Below, in pieces: positions 1,277 to 17,854 of a stretch of DNA of 21,397 bases. Location: positions 1-21,397 of IMG/VR virus record IMGVR_UViG_3300031759_000166, one strand, 5' to 3'. The translations under genes were made by a program, and so were the position numbers. The stretch is from a virus. Positions within the stretch are counted from its first letter, which is position 1; each line of letters starts with the position of its first letter. A model generated the notes under the pieces. The model was not told where the DNA came from, did no database searches, and was given only the letters and a program-made list of their open reading frames with translations.

Positions 1277-1287
1277 ACTAATACGCA
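1277..1287 (-). promoter_or_regulatory. TGCGTATTAGT motif, copy 1 (putative phage promoter)
   Basis: This is an exact copy of the 11-base motif seen upstream of five transcription units. It abuts the T tract of the terminator at 1287-1308 and lies 57 bases before the HNH start at 1219. The downstream bases AAGAG-TAGAAT are AT-rich. No TTGACA-like -35 is visible because the terminator stem fills that space. The promoter role is inferred from position and recurrence. Confidence 0.55.
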
Positions 1288-1308
1288 AAAAAGGGGGCCG
1301 AAGCCCCC
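1287..1308 (-). terminator. Intrinsic terminator after the nrdJ-DUF1289 unit
   Basis: On the minus strand a perfect 6-bp stem GGGGGC / GCCCCC closes a TTCG tetraloop and is followed by six T residues. UUCG loops are typical of stable intrinsic terminators. It lies about 80 bases past the DUF1289 stop and directly before motif copy 1, so it insulates the nrdJ unit from the HNH-polymerase unit. Confidence 0.9.
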
Positions 1309-1330
1309 AAAACTCACCACCATGTGAAAT

Positions 1331-1419
1331 ACTTTTTCTTACAAAATTTCCCGATCGGTAACTTTTTCGTATTTTTGCCTACTTTTTTAGCAAATATTCC
1401 CGATCGGTAAACTTTTTAA
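1331..1419. repeat. Direct repeat of the 3' end of the DUF1289 gene with a CCGATCGG palindrome
   Basis: Two imperfect copies of about 38 bases, at 1331-1369 and 1381-1419, share TTCCCGATCGGTAA followed by CTTTTT on the plus strand. The second copy (plus-strand order) encodes the last codons and stop of the DUF1289 gene. The first copy is non-coding. Each copy is centred on the palindrome CCGATCGG. This could be a small tandem duplication or a pair of protein-binding sites. Confidence 0.6.
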
Positions 1420-1596
1420 TACACTTAATTTCTCTTGGTTGGACATAACATACCATTTAGAAATCTGCGCCCGGGTTCGTTTGCACCCTCGACATACATC
1501 TTGAACGTCGAGGGTACAGATACCATTGCAGGGAGATTTGACTTCCACTCCCATGCAAGGTTCCAGTTCCACAGGTTTAGTGGAGGACAGTCCCAT
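1387..1596 (-). CDS. DUF1289-family cysteine-rich protein
   Basis: This 69-residue protein has the DUF1289 signature: SPC-x3-CTLD, then VCRGCKRT, then an acidic/basic region with a conserved W (SKW) and MS. The four-Cys arrangement (C-x3-C-x7-C-x2-C) suggests metal or Fe-S binding; the family has no firmly established reaction. The start at 1596 lies 3 bases after the nrdJ stop. An internal ATG at 1554 (MGVEVKSPC) matches the usual N-terminus of the family better, and neither start has a strong ribosome binding site. It is cotranscribed with nrdJ and followed by a strong terminator. A redox or metal-related role beside the B12-dependent reductase is inference. Confidence 0.75.
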   Translation of the reverse strand: MGLSSTKPVELEPCMGVEVKSPCNGICTLDVQDVCRGCKRTRAQISKWYVMSNQEKLSVLKSLPIGNIC

Positions 1597-1599
1597 GGA

Positions 1600-3474
1600 T
1601 CAGATTTCACAGAATCCACTTGAACAAGCTAAAGTCTGTGCCCCTTCCACATTGTCTGTTTCTTCTTTAAAAATACTCCAGTCAAGCACAGGCATTTTGG
1701 CTTTTAATTCTTCGTATTCTTGTTCTGTACAAGTAGTATAGGGGGCCTGACGATATGATCCATTGTCTTTTGGCAAAAATGATACACCACTCATTTCGTC
1801 AAAATACTTCCAAACCCAAGCACCAACCTCTGGCCATTCATGCTCATCAACAGAAACTGTAACAGATGGCTTGTGGTCACACCAATAGCGTTGATATGTT
1901 AACCATAATTCTAAGTGGCTGATGGGGTCGACGTCATCTCTTGTGATCCCTGTTGGGGCTTTGATTGGGAAGCTAAACACAGTTGTCTGAGTTGGCTTGT
2001 AGACACAGTCTTCCGCTGGAACTCCTTGACTAACCAAGAATTGGCTGAGAGGATCTTTCTTATCTCCTCGTACTCGGCGGATGTAGTATTTAGCGTGTCG
2101 TGGGTGAATTCCCGAAGCTGAGTCAACAAGTTGTGATACTGTGCCACTTGGTTTAACACATGTGATTGCAGCTGATTTAGGGATTCCAAGGATTGCAGCA
2201 AACTGTTCATTTGCCTCTCTTGCTGCCAAGCGGAGCTCTGCGAGGAGTTCATTTAATTCTGGTCCTTGTGTTGTGAGTAAAGGGTTGTCGTAGATGCCGG
2301 TGAGCGAAACGCCAAGTAAGCGCTCCTCTTCAGTATTACGTTGCCACACTTTACGCAAGTAGGGGAATTTTGTGAAGGTGGCTTGGATTGTACCAAGGAT
2401 GGCGGCAAGCCGCACTTTTCGCAACAGGGTTTCTTTTGTGTCGTCATGGCGTACTACGCACTCTGAGAGGTTGCAGAATTGGTAAGGACGGAGAATGATC
2501 TCACTGCACGGATTACAGCCAAAGTCGTAGTTTGTGTCACGAATGCCACCTTTTTCAATAACTTTCTTAGCAGCCTCCCGATTAAAAATGCCTCGTTCAC
2601 CGGAATGGGAGTTGTAAAGTGATAACCATTCTTCCATGAACTTTCCGACAGTAGGTGTTTCGTTATACACCGCACTGTTGTTCGCAAGAGCGCGGTGCGG
2701 GGCAGTATCCCACCATGGTCCTGCTTTTGCATGGCGAATCCTTTCATCATCAAGATCAGATAGTGAGATCATTGCAGAGCGACGTACGCCACCCACTACA
2801 ACCACCTCACCAATTTTGCACATCAAGTCATGGCATTCTAATGAGTTTAAACGACGACCTTTTGCACCCTTAAATAAATTAACTGCGAACTTAAAAAGTT
2901 CTACTAATGGTTCTGGCCCAGAAGCACGTCCTCCAAAAGTTTTGAGTCGTGCTCCAGCGGGGCGGATGGACTCAACATTCCACTTAGGGATTTCTCCAGC
3001 CCAGAGGTTTGCGAGGAGGAGTCGGAGGGATTTGGCCCATCCTTCTTTAGAATCGTGGACGGTAATGGTATGTTCGGAATCGAATAGACGGTCTGGCACT
3101 TCCGGCAACTGACTAATATACTTTGCTTCGACTGAGAAACCAACTCCAGTGCCACACAGGAGGATAAACATCGCTTCGTCAAACGACTTCGGATCATCAA
3201 TTGGGAGATAGCTGCAGTTATAGACGCAAGTATTGTCACGGTCGGCACTCTTTCCTGCTGTCATCATGGCGCGCATGGACGGCATTAGTTCTAGGTTCTT
3301 GATTGCGGTGAATAGCTCTTCTTTTAACGCAGAATCTGCGGTGATTGCTGGTGTACGGCTAAAAATATAATCTACGAAACGACCAACTGTTTCATCCCAA
3401 GTCTCTCTACGACCTTTGTCGTCTTGGTAACGGGCGTAACGGCTCATTCCAATATATTCTTGGTACTGATCCAT
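1600..3474 (-). CDS. nrdJ: Adenosylcobalamin-dependent (class II) ribonucleotide reductase
   Basis: This 624-residue protein reduces ribonucleotides to deoxyribonucleotides, supplying DNA precursors during infection. It resembles the monomeric triphosphate-reductase (RTPR) type. Visible elements are NTCVYNCSYLP with C83 and C87, one of which is a likely redox cysteine, and LLCGTGVGFSVE near 105-116. NPCSE at 321-325 carries the thiyl-radical cysteine C323 and catalytic E325, and C334 is the probable redox partner. The C-terminal CSSGFC tail (C617, C622) matches the shuttle cysteine pair. It is somewhat shorter than the roughly 740-residue Lactobacillus RTPR. AAGAAAG lies 6 bases before the ATG. 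The gene follows a structured spacer with a terminator (3511-3641), which may attenuate its expression. Confidence 0.92.
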   Translation of the reverse strand: MDQYQEYIGMSRYARYQDDKGRRETWDETVGRFVDYIFSRTPAITADSALKEELFTAIKNLELMPSMRAMMTAGKSADRDNTCVYNCSYLPIDDPKSFDEAMFILLCGTGVGFSVEAKYISQLPEVPDRLFDSEHTITVHDSKEGWAKSLRLLLANLWAGEIPKWNVESIRPAGARLKTFGGRASGPEPLVELFKFAVNLFKGAKGRRLNSLECHDLMCKIGEVVVVGGVRRSAMISLSDLDDERIRHAKAGPWWDTAPHRALANNSAVYNETPTVGKFMEEWLSLYNSHSGERGIFNREAAKKVIEKGGIRDTNYDFGCNPCSEIILRPYQFCNLSECVVRHDDTKETLLRKVRLAAILGTIQATFTKFPYLRKVWQRNTEEERLLGVSLTGIYDNPLLTTQGPELNELLAELRLAAREANEQFAAILGIPKSAAITCVKPSGTVSQLVDSASGIHPRHAKYYIRRVRGDKKDPLSQFLVSQGVPAEDCVYKPTQTTVFSFPIKAPTGITRDDVDPISHLELWLTYQRYWCDHKPSVTVSVDEHEWPEVGAWVWKYFDEMSGVSFLPKDNGSYRQAPYTTCTEQEYEELKAKMPVLDWSIFKEETDNVEGAQTLACSSGFCEI

Positions 3475-3510
3475 GGTGTCTTTCTTGTTATTATTGGTTT
3501 ATCTAAAGGG

Positions 3511-3540
3511 CAAAAAGCCCAGCGTAGTTTCTACGCCGGG
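3511..3540 (-). terminator. Intrinsic terminator between the ssDNA-binding gene and nrdJ
   Basis: On the minus strand, CCCGGCGTAG and CTACGCTGGG form a 10-bp stem with one G-U pair around an AAA loop, followed by CTTTTTG. It lies 37 bases before the nrdJ start. It may terminate the ssDNA-binding transcript, act as an attenuator for nrdJ, or both. Confidence 0.85.
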
Positions 3541-3543
3541 CCA

Positions 3544-3638
3544 ACCCATCTACTGGGTACTACTAAAGGGTGGGAGCGTTCAGTACATTACGTCTTACTG
3601 CGTCAACTCGTCTCCCTTTCGGGACGCTCCCGTAAGAC
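3544..3638 (-). ncRNA. Candidate structured RNA (pseudoknot plus hairpins) upstream of nrdJ
   Basis: Directly after the stop of the ssDNA-binding gene the minus-strand RNA contains, in order, GTCTTAC (3638-3632), GGGAGCGT (3631-3624), TCCC-GAAA-GGGA (GNRA hairpin, 3624-3613), GTAAGAC (3598-3592) and ACGCTCCC (3579-3572). The first and fourth elements pair over 7 bp and the second and fifth pair over 8 bp. The interleaved order gives an H-type pseudoknot. GCGTC can instead pair with GACGC inside the first helix, so two states compete. A further hairpin ACCCA/TGGGT (3558-3544) and then the terminator follow. I do not recognise an Rfam family and see no B12 box. Confidence 0.5.
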
Positions 3639-4157
3639 TTAAACTGCGAAGTCTGCTGCTGCTGATGTAGCTCCACCAAACTTCTCACCGTCTTCTAACT
3701 TTTGCACGTTGTTCAAACCGCATGCAATTCCACGTGATCCAGATACATCGTATGGGTACAATGTAATTGAGGCACGACCGTAGCATCCAGAGTAAAACTC
3801 ATTGCTATCGATGATTGGGTTTAAGTCTGAATCTACAACACCGGGCTTTTCATTGCTTGATGCGTTAATGAAGTAATAGTCTGCAAAGGTATCATCTTCA
3901 CGCTCTGTAGCACCGTCACGCAAACCACCTTTTAATACCTTAGGAACTGAACCCCCAAAGTATGCAGCGTTAGTGGCTTTACATTCTTCAAATGCTTTAT
4001 TAAACCGTGCAATAGTTTCCTTATCCGATTTTGGAATAAGAATCATTGATGAGTACTTAAGTGTACCGTTCAATGTTTCTGCTGGCTCAAACACATGAGC
4101 AAAAGAGAAACGTACCTTACCGGTTACAAACTTAATTTTATTCGATTTAGCTGCCAT
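3639..4157 (-). CDS. Phage single-stranded DNA-binding protein, DUF2815 (Enc34/gp2.5-like)
   Basis: This 172-residue protein matches the DUF2815 family of phage ssDNA-binding proteins, which have an OB fold related to T7 gp2.5. Diagnostic stretches are KVRFSFAHVFEP near the N-terminus, SSMILIPKSD at about 36-45, and the C-terminal block CYGRASITLYPYD followed by RGIACGLNNVQKLEDGEKFGG. It should coat single-stranded DNA during replication and recombination. The usual acidic C-terminal tail is weak here (it ends AAADFAV). AAAAAGG precedes the ATG, a leader sequence shared with the DUF2800 gene. Transcription probably starts at motif copy 2, 78 bases upstream. The next gene in the transcript, after a terminator, is nrdJ. 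Confidence 0.85.
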   Translation of the reverse strand: MAAKSNKIKFVTGKVRFSFAHVFEPAETLNGTLKYSSMILIPKSDKETIARFNKAFEECKATNAAYFGGSVPKVLKGGLRDGATEREDDTFADYYFINASSNEKPGVVDSDLNPIIDSNEFYSGCYGRASITLYPYDVSGSRGIACGLNNVQKLEDGEKFGGATSAAADFAV

Positions 4158-4187
4158 AATTATTTTTACCTTTTTAACGTTTTAGAT

Positions 4188-4214
4188 TTGACTGATCTTA
4201 TGGGTGCCAGTCAA
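4188..4214 (-). other. 5' leader hairpin of the ssDNA-binding gene
   Basis: TTGACTG and CAGTCAA form a 7-bp stem with a 13-base loop between motif copy 2 and the ribosome binding site. There is no T tract, so it is a leader structure rather than a terminator. It may stabilise the mRNA 5' end or act as a site for autoregulation. Confidence 0.5.
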
Positions 4215-4234
4215 TTTACCCTCTTACTGTTGTT

Positions 4235-4245
4235 ACTAATACGCA
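4235..4245 (-). promoter_or_regulatory. TGCGTATTAGT motif, copy 2 (putative phage promoter)
   Basis: This exact copy is followed by AACAACAG and lies 77 bases before the ssDNA-binding gene start. The upstream bases are AT-rich (GATAGTTAATT). No consensus -35 is seen at 16-18 bases. Confidence 0.55.
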
Positions 4246-4261
4246 AATTAACTATCATTTA

Positions 4262-4278
4262 ATTTCACAATGTGAAAT
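4262..4278. repeat. Perfect 17-base palindrome ATTTCACAATGTGAAAT
   Basis: An 8-base inverted repeat with a single central base lies between the stop of the 4281-4538 gene and motif copy 2. It is shaped like an operator. A related half site, on the minus strand TATTTCACATGGTG, lies at about 1326-1339, upstream of motif copy 1. As RNA it would be a weak hairpin without a T tract, so I do not call it a terminator. Confidence 0.45.
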
Positions 4279-4280
4279 AA

Positions 4281-4538
4281 TTATGAATCGTACAAAATGC
4301 CTAACTCACCCAACGCCTGCTTCATTGCCAATGCCCTAATGAAGTCGGTGTGGTACTCCTTCTCGTACAACAATTCTGGATCATCTGCCACAATGTCTAA
4401 GATTTCCTCAATAGACTCCCGAATCTGAAGAACACCTTCTCGGTATCTTCCTCCGGGAAGCCCATCAAAGTCTTTTACAAACTGGTCGATTAACATATCC
4501 GGAATATCAAACTCAGATCCGTAGCATTCTACCAGCAT
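4281..4538 (-). CDS. Small acidic phage protein of unknown function
   Basis: I do not recognise this 85-residue acidic protein. It begins MLVECYGSEFDIPDMLIDQF and has a central run IRESIEEILDIVADDPELLY that is probably helical. There are no Cys clusters, membrane segments or catalytic motifs. AGGAG overlaps the stop codon of the upstream membrane-protein gene and gives good spacing to the ATG, so it is probably translated from the same transcript as the DUF2800 nuclease. It is the last gene of that unit. Confidence 0.75.
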   Translation of the reverse strand: MLVECYGSEFDIPDMLIDQFVKDFDGLPGGRYREGVLQIRESIEEILDIVADDPELLYEKEYHTDFIRALAMKQALGELGILYDS

Positions 4539-4546
4539 ATAAACTC

Positions 4547-4690
4547 CTATTTGGCCACGATTACTAGCCCTATATTTCCAATGGCGTAGCCCATAAACAT
4601 AATACCTTGACCTACGCCGCCTTTAATAAATTGATCTATTGACACAATGGCGTACACAATCCCCATTGCGCCTATTAGCCACGTACTCAT
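4547..4690 (-). CDS. Small two-segment hydrophobic membrane protein
   Basis: This 47-residue ORF starts MSTWLIGAMGIVYAIVSID and ends GYAIGNIGLVIVAK. Two hydrophobic stretches (about 4-17 and 30-46) are separated by a short polar turn (DQFIKGGVGQG), so it should be an inner-membrane hairpin. GGAGG lies 8 bases before the ATG, and the ATG overlaps the TGA of the DUF2800 gene (ATGA). These features make it a real gene despite its size. Small membrane proteins of this kind are common in phage early regions; I cannot assign a function. Confidence 0.75.
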   Translation of the reverse strand: MSTWLIGAMGIVYAIVSIDQFIKGGVGQGIMFMGYAIGNIGLVIVAK

Positions 4691-5841
4691 TTAAAATCCT
4701 CCGCGACATCCTCTTTAGCTCGCACCAGTTTGGGCTCTCCTTCTGGCCTTAAAATCAAGTTACCAAGCCAAGATGCTACTTGTCCTTTAGGTCCTAATTT
4801 TTCCAACGAGGCGATTGATTTGAGCTTTGGAGCCTCCCAAATAGCTTTTGGGTCCATACCCTTCTCAACCAAAACGGTGGCCGCTAAGGCCGTATCTGAT
4901 ATCTTACGGTGGGTCTTTGTGGTGGAGAGTGTGTAACCTGGCGGCACAATGTTTTGATTGATAGCTCGGGTAAGTGCAAACTCTTCCACATCGTTAACCC
5001 AGGTTTTTAGGCCTTGGGCTTTTGCGAGGACTTGACTAACTTCTTCTTCACTGAGGAGGGGCGGGGCTTTGAATTCTTGCTTGGCGAGCTCGGTGTTAAA
5101 ATCGCTGCGGGCTCGGCACTGCGCTTTGGCTTTGCAGAACTGGCACCATTCGCCGGGGAGGAATTCGCCAGCACCACTCCACGCTTTTTTCGCTTTTGGG
5201 CGTACGTAGTAATTGGCCCAGTCGACAAGTTTGACAAGGCTTGTTCCGTCAGTGGAAATGCTATCGAGCCGCGGCTGGTGAATAGTGTAGCTGATTTCGT
5301 GGATCTCTGGATACTCGTCGCGGAACTTTGCCCAGGCTCCAAGTGCGTATAGTCTGAGTTGTGGGTTATCTTGTGCATGGACAGGGATTCCTTTACCGAA
5401 CTTGAGGTCGATGACGCGAATGGCGTGCTTAGAAAGTATAACCACATCGGCCGTACCAAAGCCATCAGGAACCCACTCAGAGAAGTCCACACGTTGCTCA
5501 AAAAGTGATCGATCGCCCTCGCCAATTTGACTGCGAACGTAAAGGACGTAATTGTCGACATTTGCTTCGAAATCTTCGCGCTCTTCTTTGGAGTACGCTT
5601 TGTAGATTGGGTGGGTTTTGATGATTTCATACTCGCGGTCATACTCGTCGTGTCCTATTTGATTGAAATTTAGTCGTAAACGTATTTCTCCAAGGGAGTG
5701 GGCTAGTGTGCCTTCTGCGGAGAAATCAATCCCCTTGGTACTTCGTTTTTGTTCTGGGAGTGTTGCCTCAAGTCTGGCCGAAGGGGTGCATGAAAGCCAC
5801 CGTTTGGAACCCGAAGCTGAAAGAAGAGCATGAGCCGTCAT
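4687..5841 (-). CDS. DUF2800 PD-(D/E)XK nuclease, RecB/Cas4-like
   Basis: This 384-residue protein matches DUF2800, a phage family with a RecB/Cas4-like nuclease fold. Visible residues are E43-GTLAH48 (motif I region), GTAD132 and D145-L-K147 (the PD-(D/E)XK core), and Q161-x3-Y165, the RecB-type QxxxY motif. C18 near the N-terminus and C233, C236 and C242 (EWCQFCKAKAQC) could together form an Fe-S cluster as in AddB and Cas4. It probably processes DNA ends in replication or recombination with the ssDNA-binding protein and DNA polymerase. TAAAAAGGTAAAAATG gives the start, 35 bases after motif copy 3. It overlaps the membrane-protein gene downstream. Confidence 0.85.
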   Translation of the reverse strand: MTAHALLSASGSKRWLSCTPSARLEATLPEQKRSTKGIDFSAEGTLAHSLGEIRLRLNFNQIGHDEYDREYEIIKTHPIYKAYSKEEREDFEANVDNYVLYVRSQIGEGDRSLFEQRVDFSEWVPDGFGTADVVILSKHAIRVIDLKFGKGIPVHAQDNPQLRLYALGAWAKFRDEYPEIHEISYTIHQPRLDSISTDGTSLVKLVDWANYYVRPKAKKAWSGAGEFLPGEWCQFCKAKAQCRARSDFNTELAKQEFKAPPLLSEEEVSQVLAKAQGLKTWVNDVEEFALTRAINQNIVPPGYTLSTTKTHRKISDTALAATVLVEKGMDPKAIWEAPKLKSIASLEKLGPKGQVASWLGNLILRPEGEPKLVRAKEDVAEDFK

Positions 5842-5876
5842 TTTTACCTTTTTAGAATTTTTTACTGGGTATATTT

Positions 5877-5887
5877 ACTAATACGCA
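5877..5887 (-). promoter_or_regulatory. TGCGTATTAGT motif, copy 3 (putative phage promoter)
   Basis: This exact copy lies in the 59-base gap between the HNH gene at 5901-6371 and the DUF2800 gene. It is followed by AAATATACCC and gives a short leader of 35 bases with ribosome binding site AAAAAGG. Confidence 0.55.
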
Positions 5888-5900
5888 TTTTTAAGTATTT

Positions 5901-6371
5901 TTAGTCTGATTTTTCAGTATATTTTTCTAAATATTTTTGGGCGGATTTTAAAATTTCTATGGAATCTCTAGCTTGCCCTAAAAGTACATTACAAAGATGA
6001 CAAAGAATACCTCGTATTTCCCCAGTTGCATGAGAATGATCTATGTGGGCTTTGTGCCCCAGACCCAATACATCTTCGCAAATAGCACATCTATTATTTT
6101 GTATATTCTTTAATTCTTGCTCTTGTTCAAAAGTTATACCGTACTTTGTTTTTGTATGATAATTTCGTTGAGCTTTTTTAACTTTTTCTAAATTATTTTT
6201 ACCCCATTCTCGAGTTCGTGAAATTACTTTTTCTCGATTTTTAGAATACCAAAGGGCAGCTTTTAGTTTTGCGCACGCTTTGCAGCACAAAACTAACCCG
6301 TCTTTTGCTTTTTTATGTTTATGAAACTCAGTTACTGGTTTTTGAATGCCGCATGAATTGCAGTTTTTCAT
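5901..6371 (-). CDS. HNH endonuclease, recombination endonuclease VII type (second copy)
   Basis: This 156-residue protein has an N-terminal zinc ribbon (C4-x2-C7, C30-x2-C33). A basic linker of about 50 residues is followed by the HNH core: C95-x2-C98, DHSH at 111-114, and C124-x2-C127-N. It is a paralogue of the HNH at 845-1219, with the linker longer by about 30 residues and the core and C-terminal helix strongly conserved. AGGAT precedes the ATG at 9 bases. It occupies the place after the terminase small subunit where many phages have the large subunit. HNH proteins beside terminases can assist packaging-site cleavage, but its similarity to the polymerase-linked copy favours a mobile homing gene. 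Confidence 0.87.
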   Translation of the reverse strand: MKNCNSCGIQKPVTEFHKHKKAKDGLVLCCKACAKLKAALWYSKNREKVISRTREWGKNNLEKVKKAQRNYHTKTKYGITFEQEQELKNIQNNRCAICEDVLGLGHKAHIDHSHATGEIRGILCHLCNVLLGQARDSIEILKSAQKYLEKYTEKSD

Positions 6372-6404
6372 TGATTTTATCCTTACTGATAAGTTTGGTG
6401 GGTA

Positions 6405-6424
6405 GCCAGTGAGTAAGCACTGGC
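6405..6424. other. Inverted repeat in the terS-HNH gap
   Basis: GCCAGTG and CACTGGC form a perfect 7-bp stem with loop AGTAAG (plus-strand reading). It has no T tract on either strand, so it is unlikely to be an intrinsic terminator. It lies in an 86-base gap that is GC-richer than its surroundings. An RNA leader for the HNH gene or a packaging-related DNA site are both possible. Confidence 0.4.
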
Positions 6425-6457
6425 AGGGCCGCTAAACCCGTTCCCCGTTGATTGATA

Positions 6458-6853
6458 TTACTCTTTTAATGCTTTAATTAATTTTGCGATTTCCTCATTA
6501 AAATTAACGGAAACCTCGTTCTTTACCTCGGACTTAATTTCGCGGTTATCTTTGTAATCATCGGGATACTGTCCTCGAAGGGCAATTTCAGCGATCCTGG
6601 AGTTAAATGCTTTGTTGTCCACGTTGGCTAGGAGCATCATTTCCCAATAAGACTGACCATATACTGTTGCCATATCCATGGTCTCTGCAAAGTATGGGTC
6701 TTCTTTTTTCCACTTTGCTGCCGTACCACGGCTAATACCGATGGCGGCATACATTGATTTTTGAGAGGCGCCCTGTTTGCCAAGTTCCAAAACGGTCTTA
6801 GCCATTTCCTCGGTGAACGTCTTTTTGTTTGGGGGTGATTTTTTAGTTGCCAT
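6458..6853 (-). CDS. terS: Probable terminase small subunit
   Basis: This 131-residue protein has an N-terminal helix-turn-helix (about 13-50: EEMAKTVLELGKQGASQKSMYAAIGISRGTAAKW, cited in part), as in small terminase subunits that bind the packaging site. A helical region (YFAETMDMATVYGQSYWEMML), an IAEIALRGQYPDDYKD block and an acidic C-terminal helix ending IAKLIKALKE follow. I recognise the overall pattern from phage terS-like DNA-packaging proteins; a different HTH regulator is possible. The ATG overlaps the stop of the small basic protein upstream (TAATG). No large subunit is present downstream within the window, where an HNH gene follows instead. Confidence 0.65.
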   Translation of the reverse strand: MATKKSPPNKKTFTEEMAKTVLELGKQGASQKSMYAAIGISRGTAAKWKKEDPYFAETMDMATVYGQSYWEMMLLANVDNKAFNSRIAEIALRGQYPDDYKDNREIKSEVKNEVSVNFNEEIAKLIKALKE

Positions 6854-7002
6854 TATTTTTTAGCGGTCTTTGCAGACTCTTTAAATTGTTTAGCTGTGGG
6901 GGCGCCTTTGGTACCCGGCTTGCGCATCTTTTCGCCCGAGCCAGCTTTAATGCGCTCTTGCTTAGCGTGGATGTTTGCGTATAAACCGGGTTTAGTTGCC
7001 AT
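6853..7002 (-). CDS. Short basic phage protein preceding terS
   Basis: This 49-residue ORF reads MATKPGLYANIHAKQERI and then KAGSGEKMRKPGTKGAPTA before a Lys-rich tail. The G-LY-NI--K--RI--GSGEKMRKPG-KGAPTA pattern belongs to short basic proteins I recognise from many podovirus- and siphovirus-like genomes, where the function is unknown. Its stop overlaps the terS start (TAATG), so the two are translationally coupled. The upstream ribosome binding site is weak (AGG). It is the first gene after the repeat-rich region at 7003-7190. Confidence 0.75.
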   Translation of the reverse strand: MATKPGLYANIHAKQERIKAGSGEKMRKPGTKGAPTAKQFKESAKTAKK

Positions 7003-7012
7003 ATTGATACCT

Positions 7013-7103
7013 ATATGTATAGTTATTGACAAAAAGTATACATATCAACAGTTTTGTTGACATTTTTGTAAAGTTTTGCCGACTAATTGTAAAGTTGTTG
7101 ACA
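7013..7103. repeat. Cluster of operator-like repeats upstream of the packaging unit
   Basis: This AT-rich stretch holds a perfect 9-base inverted repeat (ATATGTATA 7013-7021, TATACATAT 7037-7045). It also holds three direct copies of TTRTTGACA on the plus strand (7023-7031, 7054-7062, 7095-7103) and two copies of TTGTAAAGTT (7066-7075, 7087-7096). It lies just upstream of the small basic protein and terS. It could be a promoter/operator region or a terminase recognition site. The TTGACA elements would be canonical -35 boxes only for the plus strand, where there is no gene. Confidence 0.55.
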
Positions 7104-7190
7104 TTGGGCAGGAAATCCCAATCTTGGAGTTGGTTACCTGTGGGTCTGGTGATATTAAGTGCCGATGCCTCCGGTCACACCTTGCCCAAT
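7103..7190. other. 88-base element closed by an 8-bp stem, candidate ncRNA or packaging-site structure
   Basis: ATTGGGCA (7103-7110) and TGCCCAAT (7183-7190) pair perfectly and enclose several smaller inverted repeats. On the minus strand these include GTG-A-CCG/CGG-CAC with a one-base bulge and CCAA/TTGG. The result is a multibranched, tRNA-sized fold. It is not a tRNA, because there is no T-arm consensus or CCA. It has no plausible ORF on the minus strand. It sits between a terminator and the packaging genes, so an RNA (packaging or regulatory) or a terminase-binding DNA site are both open. Confidence 0.4.
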
Positions 7191-7201
7191 CTCAAAAATT
7201 T

Positions 7202-7244
7202 AAAAAACCCCACAAAGTGTGCTTCCATGGATAGGCATGCGGGG
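7202..7244 (-). terminator. Intrinsic terminator after the 7253-7498 gene
   Basis: On the minus strand CCCCGCA and TGTGGGG form a 7-bp stem (one G-U pair), with an inner TGC/GCA extension, followed by six T residues. It begins 9 bases after the stop at 7253 and isolates the packaging unit from upstream transcription. Confidence 0.85.
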
Positions 7245-7252
7245 TGTGTTAC

Positions 7253-7498
7253 TTAAAAGCCTGTTACTTTCTTTGCAGCTTTCACTAACTCTTTTTCAGT
7301 GCTCTCGCTGATAAATCGGTTAATTTGTAAAGCTGCGTCAATAACCTCTTCCATTGTTGGAAATTTTGGAGCTGCTTCAGCTAATTGTTTGGATGTCTTG
7401 TCCATTAGATCCCACGCAGCCATCTGGGCTTTGTAGTTGTTTTCTAATAGTTCTTTTGCTTGATAAAATGCTGCATAACGTAGTTCAAAAGGTGTCAT
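7253..7498 (-). CDS. Small helical phage protein (MTPFELR family)
   Basis: This 81-residue protein begins MTPFELRYAAFYQAKELLE. Short proteins with this opening (MTPF-LR, then a helix, then FPT-EE-I--A--IN-F) occur in many phages of T4-like and other types, with no known function. It is predicted all-helical and lacks Cys and membrane segments. I choose the start at 7498 because AGGACACAATATG gives a ribosome binding site. The frame stays open to 7618 only by reading through the promoter-like motif. It forms a one-gene unit between motif copy 4 and a terminator, with a long structured leader. Confidence 0.78.
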   Translation of the reverse strand: MTPFELRYAAFYQAKELLENNYKAQMAAWDLMDKTSKQLAEAAPKFPTMEEVIDAALQINRFISESTEKELVKAAKKVTGF

Positions 7499-7606
7499 AT
7501 TGTGTCCTGTGTGTGATGTGTGTGAGGGCCAGGATTCTATGATGGCTCCTGGTGGCCATTGGCTTTCTTTACAGCCGGGGGTATCTCCCGATAAGCCCCT
7601 ATATAC
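7499..7606 (-). other. Structured 108-base 5' leader
   Basis: Between motif copy 4 and the start at 7498 the minus strand has several inverted repeats: GGGG/CCCC around a 14-base loop, GGCT/AGCC around TGTAAAGAA-like bases, and CCAGG/CCTGG around 14 bases. No ORF of note uses this stretch. It is probably an untranslated leader that could stabilise or regulate the mRNA. Confidence 0.45.
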
Positions 7607-7617
7607 ACTAATACGCA
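7607..7617 (-). promoter_or_regulatory. TGCGTATTAGT motif, copy 4 (putative phage promoter)
   Basis: This exact copy is embedded in a 9-base inverted repeat on the plus strand (ATACACTAA 7603-7611, TTAGTGTAT 7619-7627). It is followed by GTATATAGGGG and lies 108 bases before the 7253-7498 gene. Confidence 0.55.
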
Positions 7618-7635
7618 TTTAGTGTATTAAACGCC

Positions 7636-7866
7636 CTAAAAATCATCCGGCACTATGATAGTCTTCTTAGGCTTGGATGGTGGCGTTTTGTTTAGCGCAC
7701 TGTGTAGGTGTGGCATGACATCATTAAGCATCATCTTGGCCATTGCTGCAGCCTTTTCTTGGTGCTCAATCTCTTGCTGGGCCGTTGTTTGTTTGGCTTT
7801 GCGTTCGACTTCCTTAATGATGTTATTGCTGATACCTGCGCTCTTAAGCAGTTGCTTCAGGTTCAC
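7636..7866 (-). CDS. Small phage protein with a charged helical core
   Basis: This 76-residue protein is unrecognised. It has a predicted long helix (IIKEVERKAKQTTAQQEIEHQEKAA) followed by a Pro/Lys-rich tail (PPSKPKKTIIVPDDF). I prefer a GTG start at 7866 because GGAG lies 7 bases upstream. An ATG at 7890 adds eight residues but deepens the overlap with the preceding gene to 47 bases and has a poor ribosome binding site. It is the last gene of the unit that begins at 9297. Confidence 0.65.
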   Translation of the reverse strand: MNLKQLLKSAGISNNIIKEVERKAKQTTAQQEIEHQEKAAAMAKMMLNDVMPHLHSALNKTPPSKPKKTIIVPDDF

Positions 7867-8092
7867 TTGGCGTCTCCACTGGTGTTGCATTCTCGTTCAA
7901 TGCATCAATTTGTGGTGCACATTGTGCTTGAATGGCTGCAATGATATTTGCCAACAATACTACTGGGGCTTTAAAGGGCTCATTTAGTACATTGATAATG
8001 CCATTGATGTCCTGAACTGAGAACTTCAAAGTCATAATCTTATCGGCCAATGGATCTACTGGTTTTGCTGCTGTATCGACTGTATCAGTCAT
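7844..8092 (-). CDS. Small phage protein of unknown function
   Basis: This 82-residue protein has a central block TLKFSVQDINGIINVLNEPFKAPVVLLANIIAAIQAQCAPQI (cited in part as KFSVQDINGIINVL and APVVLLANII). It resembles a widespread short phage family with the pattern L-F-V-D-N-IL--L---PF--V--LI--IQ-Q--PQ. The function is unknown. The N-terminus and C-terminus are low-complexity and acidic. It overlaps the preceding gene by 8 bases and the next by about 23. Confidence 0.72.
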   Translation of the reverse strand: MTDTVDTAAKPVDPLADKIMTLKFSVQDINGIINVLNEPFKAPVVLLANIIAAIQAQCAPQIDALNENATPVETPSEPEATA

Positions 8093-8384
8093 TTTTACTT
8101 CCTTTCTTCTTTGGTTGTTTAATTGGGAAACCCAATCTTTCTCTTGCTGCTAACTGCTCCGGATCAGTACAGTACTGATTTAATTCAAATTTACGACAAT
8201 ATGTATCCATCAATGCCTCCATACGCATATCGTGAAGCATTTTAATACCTAATAGCGCATTAGATATTTCATCTTCTGTCATTGGTCTTGGGGCGTCGCC
8301 GTGATGTTTAAATAACAAATCAATATCATCTGCTGTTTGCCACGCCACCATGATGGCCTGTTCTAAATCGTATCTATCGCTCAT
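8085..8384 (-). CDS. Small phage protein of unknown function
   Basis: This 99-residue protein is mostly helical, with an N-terminal helix (RYDLEQAIMVAWQTADDIDLL), the segment MTEDEISNALLGIKMLHDMRMEALMD, and a basic C-terminal tail (KQPKKKGSKND). No catalytic motif is seen. Its ATG overlaps the stop of the 8381-8602 gene (ATGA), and its stop overlaps the next gene by 8 bases, so it is tightly coupled in the operon. Confidence 0.72.
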   Translation of the reverse strand: MSDRYDLEQAIMVAWQTADDIDLLFKHHGDAPRPMTEDEISNALLGIKMLHDMRMEALMDTYCRKFELNQYCTDPEQLAARERLGFPIKQPKKKGSKND

Positions 8385-8602
8385 TTCTTTTTCTTTCTGG
8401 CAGCTTTTACTTGGCCATCAAAATCAAAACAATACCATCTACCAACGATAATTAAAGCCGGTAGAAGTTCTTTCCATGCTTCGATATCATCTTCATGCCA
8501 TTTGTTGGGCTGTTTTAAACTCTTCTCAATGCTGACATAGCTATCAATGAGACTTTTTCCAACAAGTTCGTCCATGAAATCGTCATCAATTTCAATATTC
8601 AT
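8381..8602 (-). CDS. Small phage protein of unknown function
   Basis: This 73-residue protein starts MNIEIDDDFMDELVGKSLID and ends in a basic tail (AARKKKK). The middle has WHEDDIEAWKELLPALIIVGRWY. No family is recognised. The start at 8602 is chosen because AAGGAG lies 8 bases upstream and the ATG overlaps the DUF3310 stop (ATGA). A GTG at 8611 would leave the ribosome binding site too close. Confidence 0.73.
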   Translation of the reverse strand: MNIEIDDDFMDELVGKSLIDSYVSIEKSLKQPNKWHEDDIEAWKELLPALIIVGRWYCFDFDGQVKAARKKKK

Positions 8603-8823
8603 TTGCCACACTCCTTTTCGTGATGCATTCTTTTTTCAATTTCTCGGCGAACATACCATTCGGCTTTACGTAAGTCTTCAACGGCATCATGTTTTAAATC
8701 AGCGCGCCAAATGTATTTGATGGCATTGCCAAGGTTAAAACCCATGTGCTCAGTAACCTGAATGCATTCGATTCCAGAGGGGTGAGCAGTATAATGCTTA
8801 GGCTTATTCACTGGGTCGTGCAT
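8599..8823 (-). CDS. DUF3310 protein
   Basis: This 74-residue protein has the DUF3310 pattern: VNKPKHYTAHPSGIECIQV at the N-terminus, then FNLGNAIKYIWRADLKHDA, then EDLRKAEWYVRREIE. The family is common in phages near nucleotide-metabolism and replication genes and has sometimes been annotated as a nucleotide-kinase-like protein, but I know of no demonstrated activity. It overlaps its upstream neighbour by 20 bases and its downstream neighbour by 3. Confidence 0.88.
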   Translation of the reverse strand: MHDPVNKPKHYTAHPSGIECIQVTEHMGFNLGNAIKYIWRADLKHDAVEDLRKAEWYVRREIEKRMHHEKECGK

Positions 8824-8989
8824 GCTTTCTCCTTAGTTCGCTTTCTACTGCCATAATTTCTTCTGGTGTGTCACAAACCCAAAGTGTCTGAATATCTTTA
8901 AACATGGTTAGATCGATATCTTCAACACCCTGTACCGTATCAAACATCGCGTGCCCTTTAACTAAATGCTCGACAATAAATGTTGTCAT
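8804..8989 (-). CDS. Small phage protein of unknown function
   Basis: This 61-residue protein reads MTTFIVEHLVKGHAMFDTVQ at the N-terminus and ends in a basic helix (VESELRRKHARPSE). It resembles a small alpha/beta fold. No family is recognised. The ATG overlaps the stop of the region-4-like gene (ATGA). Confidence 0.68.
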   Translation of the reverse strand: MTTFIVEHLVKGHAMFDTVQGVEDIDLTMFKDIQTLWVCDTPEEIMAVESELRRKHARPSE

Positions 8990-9297
8990 ATCTTTAATTC
9001 CTTTTTAATAAATTCAATGCCCTTAGCAAAATGGTAGCGCCAGTATTTTTCAGTTACGTTAATATCGGCGTGTGTTAGCCCCTCTAAAAACGCCTCTAAA
9101 ATAAACTGCTGTTTTGTCGGTAGCTGTTCAGCAATCAATCTCCTAACATCCAGTATATCTTCTGCATTCCACGGAAGATAAGCCTCCATCATGTCGGCAG
9201 ATACCCCCTCGTTGTCATCTTGCTCAATCGGATCGAGCTCTTCATCTGACAAACGGGGGGTTGCGGCGTTGATTTTGTGTTTGGTTTTTGTCCTCAT
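8986..9297 (-). CDS. HTH protein resembling sigma factor region 4
   Basis: This 103-residue protein has a Lys-rich, acidic N-terminal half and a C-terminal block from about residue 53 (VRRLIAEQLPTKQQFILEAF, then LEGLTHADINVTEKYWRYHF). The run L-P-x-K-Q-x3-L-x4-LEGLT-x2-[DE]I followed by a basic recognition-like helix resembles sigma-70 region 4, although the turn is a few residues short. It could bind the RNA polymerase flap or DNA; a generic HTH regulator is the alternative. The ATG at 9297 has no ribosome binding site ahead of it, because the helicase stop and motif copy 5 lie only 6 bases upstream. An ATG at 9315 exists but is inside the motif. Confidence 0.5.
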   Translation of the reverse strand: MRTKTKHKINAATPRLSDEELDPIEQDDNEGVSADMMEAYLPWNAEDILDVRRLIAEQLPTKQQFILEAFLEGLTHADINVTEKYWRYHFAKGIEFIKKELKI

Positions 9298-9299
9298 AG

Positions 9300-10643
9300 C
9301 TACACTAATACGCAATTTAGGGCATCTAAAAGGGCTTCTTGCAAATTTATTTTTCCATCTAGCACTTTGGCCACTTGTTCGTCGATACTATTAGACACCG
9401 TTAGATGGTGTATGATAACCGGTTTCGTTTGCCCTTGGCGGTAAATCCTAGCGTTGGCTTGGATGTAGTTTTCTGAACTCCATGGTAGATCAAACCACAC
9501 CGTCTGGGCTGTTTCACCAACGTTGCACTGTAAATTGAGCCCGATTCCCCCACTTTGGGGATGGGCAAGGAGCATACGAATCTCCCCACGACGCCATGCT
9601 TCGATGTTGTCATCGTCCAACACCACAGCCTGCGGGAATTGAAGACGTATTCTTTGGAGAGAATGTTTAAAGTGGTAGAAGACCAGCGTAGGGGAGGAAG
9701 ACTCTTCCATGACCGACTCAAGACGTTCCAGTTTAGAGCGGTGTACCTCTTGTGTTTCTCCTTCTTCGGTGTATATAGCGCCCGATGTGAACTGGAGGAG
9801 TTTCCCCGCCAGTGTCGCCGCTGTTGGAGCTGTGATTTTCCCCTTACCGATGTCAAGGACCATGTCTTTTCTAAGTTCGTCATATTGCCTCCTTACCTGT
9901 GGGTCAATTTCGATTTTGTGATACAGCGACGTAAGCGCTGGTAATTGTAAATAATCTTCAGCTTTGAGACTAAAACAAATATCTGAAACCTTATCTTTAA
10001 TATCCTGATCCGCACCATTTTTTAATTTCCATGAGTAAACTACCCTTGTATGCCTGTTCATCTGATCGGGCATCATGTATTTATCCCGGAATTTTGTGAG
10101 GCTTGTTTCAAGACGCGCCCCTAAGTCCAATATACCCACCTGAGACCAGAGATCGCCCATGCCCTGAGGGGTAGGTGTACCCGTGAGTATTACGCGTCTC
10201 TGAAAGCCCTTTAAATGCTTCTTAAGCGCCTTAAAACGCTTGGTTGAGGCGTCTTTAAAACGGGATGACTCATCAATTACTAAGTTAGTAAACACTAACT
10301 TGTCCGAGGCGCCACAAAGCCAAGCCACGTTTTCAAGGTTTATCAGGTATACGTCTGCCTCTTGGTCTAAGGCCTGCTGCCTCTGCGTAAGCGTCCCTAA
10401 AATTTTCGAGACTTTCAAGGATTTTAAATGTTCCCACTTCTTTACCTCCGCATCCCACACCGTCTCCGCTACTCGCTTGGGTGCTATAATAAGTGTCTTG
10501 CCCGTGAACTGTTCGGCAATAATGGTGAGTGTAGTTGTCGTCTTGCCCAATCCAGGTGGCAGAAAAAGACCAAGGTTGGGGATTGTTTTGGCTTTTGATA
10601 TGAGCTCCTTTTGATAGGGGTGAAGTTGTTCTCTAGTCAGCAT
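9300..10643 (-). CDS. SNF2-family DNA helicase/translocase
   Basis: This 447-residue protein is a superfamily 2 ATPase of the short phage SNF2 type. Walker A is PPGLGKTT at 29-36, motif Ia is LIIAPKRV, and motif II is VIDESS around 122-127. Motif III is LTGTP at 153-157, motif V is GIGLNLQ, and motif VI is QANARIYRQGQ near 395-405. It should couple ATP hydrolysis to movement on DNA during replication or recombination. VRR-NUC, HNH and SNF2 helicase are adjacent, a common phage replication cluster. The ATG at 10643 lies inside the HNH gene (11-base overlap) with no clear ribosome binding site, so translation may depend on coupling. Confidence 0.92.
   Translation of the reverse strand: MLTREQLHPYQKELISKAKTIPNLGLFLPPGLGKTTTTLTIIAEQFTGKTLIIAPKRVAETVWDAEVKKWEHLKSLKVSKILGTLTQRQQALDQEADVYLINLENVAWLCGASDKLVFTNLVIDESSRFKDASTKRFKALKKHLKGFQRRVILTGTPTPQGMGDLWSQVGILDLGARLETSLTKFRDKYMMPDQMNRHTRVVYSWKLKNGADQDIKDKVSDICFSLKAEDYLQLPALTSLYHKIEIDPQVRRQYDELRKDMVLDIGKGKITAPTAATLAGKLLQFTSGAIYTEEGETQEVHRSKLERLESVMEESSSPTLVFYHFKHSLQRIRLQFPQAVVLDDDNIEAWRRGEIRMLLAHPQSGGIGLNLQCNVGETAQTVWFDLPWSSENYIQANARIYRQGQTKPVIIHHLTVSNSIDEQVAKVLDGKINLQEALLDALNCVLV
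9304..9314 (-). promoter_or_regulatory. TGCGTATTAGT motif, copy 5 (putative phage promoter)
   Basis: This exact copy overlaps the last codons of the SNF2 helicase gene, whose stop TAG lies 1 base beyond the motif. It ends 6 bases before the ATG of the region-4-like gene. If TATTAG acts as a -10, the transcript would start at or next to that ATG and be leaderless. Confidence 0.5.
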
Positions 10644-12824: not shown

Positions 12825-12943
12825 TATGTGTTCCTATGGTATGCGTCGTTAGGGTTGGCCAGCATGCTGGCAATAAGGGCGTCAACGGTGGGGAACCACT
12901 GGATGACTTTGAGGCCGTCTGCTTGGTAGATGGTGAAGCTCAT
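12824..12943 (-). CDS. Very small phage protein of unknown function
   Basis: This 39-residue ORF begins MSFTIYQADGLKVIQWFPTV and ends NDAYHRNT. Its ATG overlaps the stop of the 12940-13164 gene (ATGA) and its own stop forms TAATG with the next gene. It fills an otherwise non-coding gap in a fully coupled operon, which is the main support for it. Confidence 0.6.
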   Translation of the reverse strand: MSFTIYQADGLKVIQWFPTVDALIASMLANPNDAYHRNT

Positions 12944-13164
12944 TCGTTTCTCAACATCTTGGCAATTTGAAAACAAAATTCAATGTGCTCTGTTGGTGAA
13001 TCAGATAGTTTCATCATTAACAATTTACCTTCTTTGTTTTTAAGTTGGCCAATTGCTATAGCAATAGCTTCGGCAGTTGCTGATGTAGTGTTCATTGTCA
13101 TAAGTTCATCAATAGATTCTTGTGCTAATTTAGTAATTCTTTCCATTGCTTCATTGTGTGTCAT
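12940..13164 (-). CDS. Small helical phage protein
   Basis: This 74-residue protein is mainly helical, starting MTHNEAMERITKLAQESIDE, with an Ala/Thr-rich middle (TTSATAEAIAIAIGQL) and ending EFCFQIAKMLRNE. AGGAG lies upstream, encoded in the tail of the preceding gene (HGIGE). No family is recognised. Confidence 0.7.
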   Translation of the reverse strand: MTHNEAMERITKLAQESIDELMTMNTTSATAEAIAIAIGQLKNKEGKLLMMKLSDSPTEHIEFCFQIAKMLRNE

Positions 13165-13167
13165 AAC

Positions 13168-13305
13168 CTATTCTCCTATTCCGTGGGCGCGGTCTTGCAT
13201 GCCCTTTGACCAAGTTACTGTTGGTTGCTTGATGTAGCCATTAGCAACGGCTTCTTTGTGTGTCATTACGGTACGATTTCCATCTTTGTCGTGAATGATG
13301 ATCAT
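13168..13305 (-). CDS. Small phage protein of unknown function
   Basis: This 45-residue ORF begins MIIIHDKDGNRTVMTHKEAV and ends SKGMQDRAHGIGE. The ATG overlaps the stop of the 13302-13667 gene and AGGAGA lies 8 bases upstream. Its C-terminal HGIGE codons carry the AGGAGA ribosome binding site for the next gene, exactly as the end of the upstream gene does for this one. Confidence 0.65.
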   Translation of the reverse strand: MIIIHDKDGNRTVMTHKEAVANGYIKQPTVTWSKGMQDRAHGIGE

Positions 13306-13667
13306 TTTGTTTCTCCTATTCCATGAGCAGCCTCGATGGCGCGGGCGAACCCAACTTCATCATTGCTTGGATCGCCCCATCCACATACTGCATTAAATAT
13401 CTCGCTGATTTGTCGTTCTGTCAACGGGCGCTTTTTCATTGGCTTGCTGGCAAGTCGGCTGGCGTCGATGAGTTGCTTGATGACTTCCATTACCTTGAAG
13501 GCGTTGTAGTCGGAGCTGGTTGTCTTCAAGCCCAATGCGTCACCGATGCGTAACACTTCTTGAGTTAATAAAACTCTAGCGTCACAGGCAATACACCCGT
13601 TTTCGCAGTGTTGGCATTTTCCGTCTCGTTCGGCATCTTGCCGGTCTTGTGTGGTGAAGGTGGTCAT
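13302..13667 (-). CDS. Small zinc-finger-like phage protein with a FARAI module
   Basis: This 121-residue protein has an N-terminal CQHCENGCIAC cluster (two CxxC pairs, likely zinc). A helical middle is followed by a C-terminal module LTERQISEIFNAV then EVGFARAIEAAHGIGE. The same LT-x2-EI-x-EI … FARAI module ends the protein at 13948-14211 and is familiar from many small phage proteins. The function is unknown. The start at 13667 has AGGAG at 9 bases and an ATGA overlap with the previous gene; the frame's upstream extension to 13703 lacks support. Confidence 0.75.
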   Translation of the reverse strand: MTTFTTQDRQDAERDGKCQHCENGCIACDARVLLTQEVLRIGDALGLKTTSSDYNAFKVMEVIKQLIDASRLASKPMKKRPLTERQISEIFNAVCGWGDPSNDEVGFARAIEAAHGIGETK

Positions 13668-13951
13668 TTCATTATCTCCTGTGTCGATGCCGCTAGTTCC
13701 CACAACGCCCGCTCTTGTTGCATGCCCATTTTACGTCCAGCCTCGTAGCCTTGTTCAAACCCACCAGCGTGTGCGATGCCTTCGTGGTGACTTGCGTTTT
13801 CAATCATGCGTTCAATGCGTTCTTTCAACGCTTCTATTTCAGATTGTTGCTGGCGTACAAAGTCTGCATACTGCTGAAATGGTTTGCTTTTTCCATCGCC
13901 CTGTATCCAATAAATGTTTTCCAATTCATCAGCTATTTGTTTTGCGTTCAT
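13664..13951 (-). CDS. MNANE-type small coiled-coil protein, paralogue 4
   Basis: This 95-residue protein opens MNAKQIADELENIYWIQGDG and contains FVRQQQSEIEALKERIER, the coiled-coil core shared by the tandem family at 13664-14739. Its C-terminal half (GGFEQGYEAGRKMGMQQERA) is Gly/Glu-rich and differs from its siblings. It is coupled by ATGA on both sides. The role is unknown; coiled coils suggest oligomer or partner binding. Confidence 0.75.
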   Translation of the reverse strand: MNAKQIADELENIYWIQGDGKSKPFQQYADFVRQQQSEIEALKERIERMIENASHHEGIAHAGGFEQGYEAGRKMGMQQERALWELAASTQEIMK

Positions 13952-14211
13952 TTGTTTTGTGCCTTTTTTAGTATTGCTCTAGCAAAATCAATGTTTTGTT
14001 CGCCTGTGTCAGTTTCCATGACACACCAAATTTCAATTATTTCGTCATCTGTTAGTGTCTTTTCAGCTTCTTGCGTAAAGTCAGATAACCTTTGTAGTGC
14101 GGCTTCTTTTTTCAACGCCTCTATTTCAGCTTGTTGCTGGCGAACCTTTTGCGTTAAATTCTTTATTGTGTTAGCCATTACATCTGTTTCAGATAGTTCA
14201 TTTGCGTTCAT
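13948..14211 (-). CDS. MNANE-type small protein with a C-terminal FARAI module, paralogue 3
   Basis: This 87-residue protein combines the family N-terminus (MNANELSETDVMANTIKNLT) and coiled-coil core (VRQQQAEIEALKKEAA) with the C-terminal module LTDDEIIEIWCVM … IDFARAILKKAQNK found in the 13302-13667 protein. It therefore looks like a fusion of two modules. The KAQ codons near its end provide the AAAGGCACAA ribosome binding site of the next gene. It is coupled by ATGA to both neighbours. Confidence 0.75.
   Translation of the reverse strand: MNANELSETDVMANTIKNLTQKVRQQQAEIEALKKEAALQRLSDFTQEAEKTLTDDEIIEIWCVMETDTGEQNIDFARAILKKAQNK
14111..14142. repeat. 32-base repeat shared by the MNANE paralogues
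   Basis: The segment at 14111-14142 recurs at 14385-14416 with a single mismatch and more loosely at 13825-13856. A partly overlapping 23-base segment is shared exactly by 14407-14429 and 14637-14659. These encode the QQQAEIEAL and ATMLRQQ parts. The DNA identity is high enough to suggest recent duplication or gene conversion. Confidence 0.75.
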
Positions 14212-14312
14212 TTAATCGCTCCAGTAACCAATCCAATAGCAATGATAAACATACCAATACCAAGCAAAAGAAATGTAATGCCAATACAATAATCTACAAA
14301 ATCGTTGTTCAT
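14208..14312 (-). CDS. Tiny single-span membrane protein
   Basis: This 34-residue ORF reads MNNDFVDYCIGITFLLLGIG and MFIIAIGLVTGAIK. Residues about 9-30 form one strong transmembrane segment. AAAGGCGCAA precedes the ATG, which overlaps the stop of the previous gene (ATGA), and its own stop overlaps the next start. It interrupts the MNANE paralogue array. The function is unknown. Confidence 0.68.
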   Translation of the reverse strand: MNNDFVDYCIGITFLLLGIGMFIIAIGLVTGAIK

Positions 14313-14503
14313 TTCTCTTGCGCCTTTTCTAATAATTCGTCAAGCATCATATTTCCTAAGTTTTCGTAACTTTTTATTTTGTTTTTCAACGCCTCAATTT
14401 CAGCTTGTTGCTGGCGTAGCATGGTGGCTATTTCTTCTGCGTTTTCATAAATCCTGCCACTATCAAACAGAATCATTAAGTCAGCCATTTCATTTGCGTT
14501 CAT
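14309..14503 (-). CDS. MNANE-type small coiled-coil protein, paralogue 2
   Basis: This 64-residue protein begins MNANEMADLMILFDSGRIYE, continues with the core IATMLRQQQAEIEALKNKIK and ends LLEKAQEK. It is the most compact member of the tandem family: N-terminal cap, ATMLRQQ helix, KAQ tail. The KAQ codons encode the ribosome binding site for the membrane protein that follows. Confidence 0.75.
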   Translation of the reverse strand: MNANEMADLMILFDSGRIYENAEEIATMLRQQQAEIEALKNKIKSYENLGNMMLDELLEKAQEK

Positions 14504-14739
14504 TGTTGTGCCTTTCCAGTTACTAATTCATCAATTAGCCTTAACTCAGCTTCCAATTCTTCAATACGCTTTCTTTGCTCAACATGGCGCAATTGGTATT
14601 TGTGCAATCTTTCGTGCTGTTCAAGCAGTTTAGAGTGTTGCTGGCGTAGCATGGTGGCTGCTTGGTCAAATAGCTTATAGTCCGTTGAGTAGTATGGTTC
14701 TGTTTCCTGAAGTGCATCAGCTAGTTCATTTGCGTTCAT
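14500..14739 (-). CDS. MNANE-type small coiled-coil protein, paralogue 1
   Basis: This 79-residue protein begins MNANELADALQETEPYYSTD, has the core AATMLRQQHSKLLEQHERLH and a long Glu/Arg-rich coiled coil ending TGKAQQ. It shares a 23-base near-identical DNA segment with paralogue 2 over the ATMLRQQ codons. It is coupled by ATGA to the DGGKGD copy B gene upstream and to paralogue 2 downstream. Confidence 0.75.
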   Translation of the reverse strand: MNANELADALQETEPYYSTDYKLFDQAATMLRQQHSKLLEQHERLHKYQLRHVEQRKRIEELEAELRLIDELVTGKAQQ

Positions 14740-15037: not shown

Positions 15038-15038
15038 G

Positions 15039-17837: not shown

Positions 17838-17844
17838 TCAGTAA

Positions 17845-17854
17845 TACTAATGCA
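17845..17854 (-). promoter_or_regulatory. Degenerate TGCATTAGTA motif before the primase-helicase gene
   Basis: On the minus strand TTTTTGCATTAGTATTAC resembles TGCGTATTAGT with two bases missing after TGC. It has the same relation to a gene start (8 bases before ATG 17837). Weak evidence on its own. Confidence 0.3.

Follow-up and report, generated by a model that had tools for sequence, protein, structure and literature searches.

An 11-base motif that recurs in a stretch of viral DNA very probably serves as a transcription start signal in a family of uncultured freshwater phages. The stretch, called the window here, is IMG/VR record IMGVR_UViG_3300031759_000166, positions 1 to 21,397, a virus record without host assignment. 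Judging from related sequences, the motif would form the core of a promoter peculiar to these phages, with an extended -10 element that spans -17 to -7 and no -35 element. We hold with high confidence that such a promoter, paired with a matching phage σ factor, is the best explanation.

The window has five exact copies of TGCGTATTAGT on the minus strand, which is the coding strand, at 1277-1287, 4235-4245, 5877-5887, 7607-7617, and 9304-9314, where a preliminary description had located them. A second-order Markov model predicts 0.007 copies on both strands. Four copies are intergenic, and the one at 9304-9314 falls within the last codons of an SNF2-helicase gene directly before the next gene, in keeping with the earlier claim that the motif precedes gene or unit starts. 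The bases following the motif, already described as similar, do matter: counting 17 bases on from the motif's first T leads to an A in all five sites, taken as +1, with a pyrimidine (Y) before it at -1. Another copy with one mismatch at 20342 on the plus strand is oriented opposite to the genes and looks like chance.

Related IMG/VR contigs were gathered via two marker genes of the window, those for DUF2800 and the single-stranded DNA-binding protein (SSB). The enrichment search that the preliminary description had proposed was run on 1.42 Mb of loci around the two markers, a total that includes overlapping loci. These loci contain 84 exact copies of the 11-mer on the coding strand and 0 on the opposite strand, and reversed and letter-shuffled control motifs give about 0 copies in the same loci. 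When aligned, the copies extend the motif with W-W-T-T ahead, A or G behind, and Y-A at a fixed distance.

The window motif turned out to be one class, class A (GCGTATTAGT), within a promoter family, and relatives carry class B, TTTGCATTA[G/A/T]TA. Classes A and B share one gap-free register when 320 distinct sites are aligned on ATTA. Class B reads T-17 T-16 T-15 G-14 C-13 and class A reads T-17 G-16 C-15 G-14 T-13; both continue with ATTANT at -12 to -7, T/C at -1, and A at +1. Logos of the 320 sites show positions -16 to -7 to be invariant within a class. G-14, the extended -10 position of σ70, is invariant, and class B adds T-15. The extended -10 likeness noted earlier was thus sound, and its register was not, since the hexamer is ATTAGT at -12 to -7 with G-14 rather than TATTAG. 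No -35 box exists in the promoter family; of the window alone, it had been said that a consistent -35 is absent. Copies falling at random or inside genes, which would have spoken against a promoter, were sought in the related contigs, and 314 of the 320 sites lie outside open reading frames (ORFs) of at least 90 aa.

Transcription probably starts at the conserved Y-1/A+1, the predicted +1. An ATG stands exactly at +1 in 62 of the 320 sites, so that the mRNAs from these 62 would be leaderless. The genes concerned belong to several unrelated families, and in 51 cases the ATG opens an ORF of 40 aa or longer. At other offsets from -3 to +25, ATG occurs in 0-12 sites, and further ATG peaks at -6 and -4 stem from the motif with its neighboring bases and mostly lack an ORF. 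A terminator hairpin lies directly upstream, with its T-run continuing into the motif, in 44/320 sites against 4/1600 random places. Sequence comparison thus demonstrates the strand bias, the constant register, the initiator, the ATGs at +1, and the terminators upstream.

We considered that the motif could be an operator or activator site of a phage regulator with ordinary host promoters adjoining it. Strict conservation and low copy number are typical of operators too, and in some relatives the motif's position is taken by a host-type extended -10. However, the Y-1/A+1 initiator and the ATG at +1 stand at one fixed distance, so close that a -10 of its own could not fit between the motif and the start, the orientation relative to the gene never varies, and residues of the DNA-reading helices of a phage σ change along with the motif, as described below. 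The operator is accordingly a very unlikely reading. The phage-specific promoter class without -35, which the preliminary description had thought simplest, is favored by the comparison with related contigs, with no need for its alternative of a shared operator.

Promoter versions are sharply separated among the phages. Upstream of the DUF2800 and SSB genes, most other relatives have TTTGCATTA[A/G/T]TATATGTAC at the homologous place, and some SSB leaders have a canonical host-type extended -10 instead, such as TGGTATACT. Because the homologous place holds different promoter classes among relatives, one promoter has been replaced by another. The long class A contigs G001, G002, and G003 contain 10, 11, and 10 copies of GCGTATTAGT, with 0.08-0.09 expected in each. 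The version in G006 and G008 is TTGCATTAATA, and that in G004 and G010 is TTGCATTAGTA. A TTGCATTAGTA promoter is also found in the window, at 17846-17856 before the primase gene. The preliminary description had listed a degenerate copy of the motif at 17845-17854, which differs at 3 of 11 bases and is better replaced by this good copy of another class, TTTGCATTAGTA. At least five natural versions exist, each nearly invariant, and largely a single class occurs per genome. Different phages would use incompatible versions, A or B, with G, A, or T at -8.

The candidate reader is a σ70 relative of about 191 aa that these phages encode. It comprises regions 1.2, 2, and 3 and lacks region 4; the window's version (20706-21281, minus strand, 191 aa) is of B-type, class CG. 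Pfam regions 1.2 and 3 score above cut-off and region 2 just below. Profile comparison with SigA/RpoD chains of solved structures gives 1e-28 to 1e-36, establishing homology over regions 2 and 3, and the alignment stops near residue 180, ahead of σ4. A σ without region 4 fits promoters without -35. No σ of named phages matches at 60% identity or above, and when 85,000 bacterial and archaeal species genomes were scanned for a prophage or host link, only cellular σ factors of at most 44% identity were found.

The 250 nt upstream of the σ gene contain a phage-class promoter in none of 86 loci, and a host-type extended -10 in 34 of the 86, compared with 6.6% of random windows. The σ is therefore probably made early. 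Promoter sites precede primase, helicase-neighbor, SSB, and DUF2800 genes as well as genes that we take to be of structural type. In the simplest order, host polymerase would make the σ early, and the σ would then open the units for replication and structure. The motif would be read by host RNA polymerase core equipped with the phage σ, whose regions 2.4/3.0 would recognize the motif's upstream part (TTTGC or GCGT) and whose region 2.3 would recognize the downstream part (ATTANTA).

A T7-like single-subunit RNA polymerase promoter, about 18 bp long with an AT-rich start and a TATA-like end, would resemble the motif in length, strictness, and genome-specific versions. However, PF00940, detected in the T7 control (1e-109), is found in 0 of 13 related contigs of 35-68 kb and 0 of 25 searched earlier, so this polymerase was rejected as the reader; the presence of a class-tracking σ also speaks against it, and such a promoter is extremely improbable.

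The σ changes with the promoter class. Besides the window, all 12 class A contigs that bear a σ gene have a σ with RG[IV]ERG...IRIPIKVREE, and class B has N where A has K. Class A requires 1 change on the σ tree (53 contigs), compared with 9 on the SSB tree, 10 on the DUF2800 tree, and 6 on the SNF2 tree. When the same 51 contigs are used, the tree of the primase, encoded 3 kb from σ, needs 4 changes and that of σ needs 1.

At several σ columns, A and B have no residue in common, among them 109 (T440 of σ70), 111, 124 (H455), and 126 (457), and those equivalent to T440, H455, and 457 belong to regions 2.4 and 3.0. Residue 98 (T429, region 2.3) is the only column separating the -8 base; it is Thr in 44/44 with G-8, and Ser, Ala, or Gly in 9/9 with A or T at -8. 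R110 (R441) is invariant across these σ factors, like G-14. Published work on σ70 assigns the reading of the -14 pair to R441 and E458 and an action at -12 to T440, and it describes T429 as a fulcrum between the bases flipped at -11 and -7 (PMC4593229, PMC2613000, PMC4496690). The class-linked residues agree with these published contact positions.

Class tracking was scanned over the 23 gene families of the window that could be tested. The number of changes required by class A is 1 for σ, 1 for a gene overlapping σ, 2 for a protein termed H, and 4-12 for the other 20, with 7 and 10 for the two direct neighbors of H. A scan with G002 genes agrees among families with many rows, and some structural-side families, having few rows, need only 2-3. 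The overlapping gene (20348-20713, minus strand) encodes an unassigned 121-aa protein, possibly hitchhiking with σ or a third component.

Because the overlapping gene and H also track the class, the tracking does not single out σ alone. The class might then be read by a protein that hitchhikes with σ, the 121-aa protein or H alone, both of which follow the class almost like σ. Neither has a recognizable -10-reading domain, however, the helix-turn-helix (HTH) helix of H, VTEKYWRYHF, is the same in both classes, and the class-linked σ residues sit in regions known to read these promoter positions. This makes a hitchhiking reader very unlikely, and the phage σ is retained as the preferred reader.

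Several points weigh against a promoter read by this σ. The overlapping gene tracks the class as well as σ does, and H almost as well. Independent switches are few, with class A having arisen once and the -8 base having changed about twice, so that the residue correlations are consistent but not statistically independent; in independent-contrast sign tests, the switches were too few for significance. The -10 sequence is ATTANT with T at -11 rather than TATAAT with A-11, and we infer the base-flipping register because the A-11 of σ70 is absent. In a few contigs, sites of different sub-classes at -8 or -13 occur together. Finally, the window's own σ is mismatched to the window's five sites.

This mismatch coincides with a mosaic structure of the window. 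The right part (~15.3-21.4 kb), where σ and the promoter of the primase gene are located, matches the CG-class contig L007 at 85% identity over 6.1 kb, and the part below ~12.9 kb groups with class A contigs. Promoter class and sequence affinity both switch at 13417-13669, or within 12900-15300. At 13417-13669 is an island of ~250 nt, 96-98% identical in contigs of other classes, which is likely the junction of two sequences. Beside it, at 13664-14739, is a group of four small paralogs (MNANELAD...), accompanied by repeats of 35-39 nt.

The window could be a true recombinant phage with a CG-class σ and class A promoters, since phages of this family exchange genes freely and the island could be a recombination site. 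Yet the independent contigs L354, L028, and L108, 99.9% identical to the A part, never continue into the σ part, L354 breaking off at 13546 inside the island, and in no other record are A sites paired with a B σ. A live recombinant is therefore doubtful, and an assembly chimera is the more likely. With A-class sites beside a σ of another class, the window's own σ is probably not their reader, and it was rejected as such, because all 12 other class A contigs with σ carry a different type. The five sites would belong to an A-type phage, whose A-type σ would lie outside the reliable part of the contig. The comparison with other contigs supports the five sites and H independently, and not their linkage to the window's σ gene. 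Motif classes can thus serve as an internal check for chimeric phage contigs, with the window as an example.

Protein H (103 aa, 8986-9297, minus strand) is encoded directly after site 5, is A-type in the window, and is present in 15 of 16 long contigs. A sequence search matches H to σ region 4 (Pfam r4_2) below cut-off, and a profile-profile comparison with σ region 4 is not significant, with a probability of 5%. Its fold is poorly predicted from the single sequence, and confidently for residues 45-100 with a 17-row alignment. The predicted fold of residues 42-103 is like σ region 4: in a structure comparison, all 50 listed matches are σ chains or models, and the best is σE region 4, alone or on -35 DNA, with Z of 8.7, although such Z values can also reflect a common arrangement.

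Distances of σ and H correlate (0.42, p 0.002), compared with 0.15 (p 0.08) for σ and SNF2, and columns 35 and 40 of H separate classes A and B. That only σ, its overlapping neighbor, and the unlinked H track the class suggests a split σ, and the odds are about even that the phage σ works with H as a separate σ4-like protein. H, made from its own phage promoter, would probably complete the σ. As even a chance, we think, is that the two-subunit σ (regions 1.2-2-3 plus a σ4-like subunit encoded 8-12 kb away) and the promoter class form a compatibility group. If so, free exchange between phages would extend to nearly all other genes but not to the two subunits, which would remain paired; every imported gene would have to bring or acquire a matching promoter, and the promoter class would limit recombination in a mosaic family.

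Phage σ factors without region 4 and promoters without -35 are already known from phiEco32 and T4. The phiEco32 gp36 is a σ without region 4 that uses tAATGTAtA promoters without -35 for middle and late genes (PMC8948821). Its likeness to the present σ, drawn from that paper, concerns function only: like gp36, the present σ lacks region 4 and would use a single-element promoter without -35, with a start 6-8 bp downstream, to serve middle/late genes. The family here differs by a longer strict element, G-14, several specificity classes, predicted leaderless mRNAs, and a separate σ4-like protein. T4 gp55 and gp33 form a split σ, a σ2-type reader with a separate σ4 mimic and no -35 (PMC2988020); gp33 lacks sequence similarity to σ and works with a sliding clamp, whereas H has a predicted σ4 fold. 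SigO-RsoA of Bacillus subtilis has σ regions 4 and 2 on separate proteins (PMC10028694). It is a cellular stress system, in contrast to the phage-borne genes here, which lie 8-12 kb apart and whose larger subunit has regions 1.2-2-3. The σ70 extended -10 promoter (TGn) shares T-15 G-14 with class B and G-14 with class A and likewise dispenses with -35, but the -10 here is ATTANT instead of TATAAT, with almost zero tolerance of change.

What is new is an uncultured family in which several sharply defined natural promoter versions appear to change together with the σ, with predicted leaderless starts, and a candidate σ4 subunit kept together with σ in a freely recombining genome. It is rare to find natural families with joint changes in σ and promoters, and those that exist are usually noisy. 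In this family, promoter sequences hardly vary, at least five versions exist, and the changed residues are where σ70 structures predict, so simple swaps would suffice to test the σ-promoter code. Should the second subunit prove real, a phage σ has been split in two, with its parts co-inherited across a mosaic genome.

The window promoters and their targets, all on the minus strand, are as follows. Class A promoter 1 (1270-1287) comprises TGCGTATTAGT (-17 to -7) followed by AAGAGT, with the predicted +1 A at 1270, and precedes an endonuclease VII-like gene with ATG at 1219; a G+C-rich stem with a T-run adjoins it upstream. In some relatives, site 1 is directly before a polA-like gene. Promoter 2 (4228-4245, predicted +1 A at 4228) precedes the SSB gene at 3639-4157, and promoter 3 (5870-5887, predicted +1 A at 5870) precedes the DUF2800 gene at 4687-5841; at both places, most relatives also have a promoter. 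Promoter 4 (7600-7617, predicted +1 A at 7600) is followed by a leader of ~99 nt and the gene at 7253-7501. Promoter 5 (9297-9314) overlaps the end of the SNF2-helicase gene, and its +1 is predicted to coincide with the first base of the ATG at 9297, so that its mRNA is predicted to be leaderless. The class CG promoter, TTTGCATTAGT-ATTACT (17839-17856, predicted +1 G at 17839), precedes the primase/helicase gene at 15516-17837.

Two free-standing endonuclease VII-like genes (845-1219 and 5901-6371, minus strand) are near sites 1 and 3. The motif as a homing endonuclease target was rejected, since sites are also found at many places that lack genes of this type.

The SSB mRNA leader (4157-4228, minus strand) contains a hairpin for which relatives show compensatory changes. 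A GGG(T) upstream of it is able to pair with the loop (A)CCC, making a candidate pseudoknot that brings to mind the T4 gene 32 operator. An Rfam search gave zero matches, also for this leader. The G+C-rich leader of ~100 nt after site 4 (7501-7600, minus strand), with similar leaders at that place in relatives, is possibly a structured RNA.

Repeats of other kinds were also seen. L215, L217, L009, L016, and other CG-class loci have a palindrome, TGTTTAAACA, with up to 28 counts per 20 kb (both strands counted), and other loci have TTGTCAGGGT, CCTAGGGTTG, or TAGGAGAATA repeats. These sets look like operator or stoperator sets of an early region.

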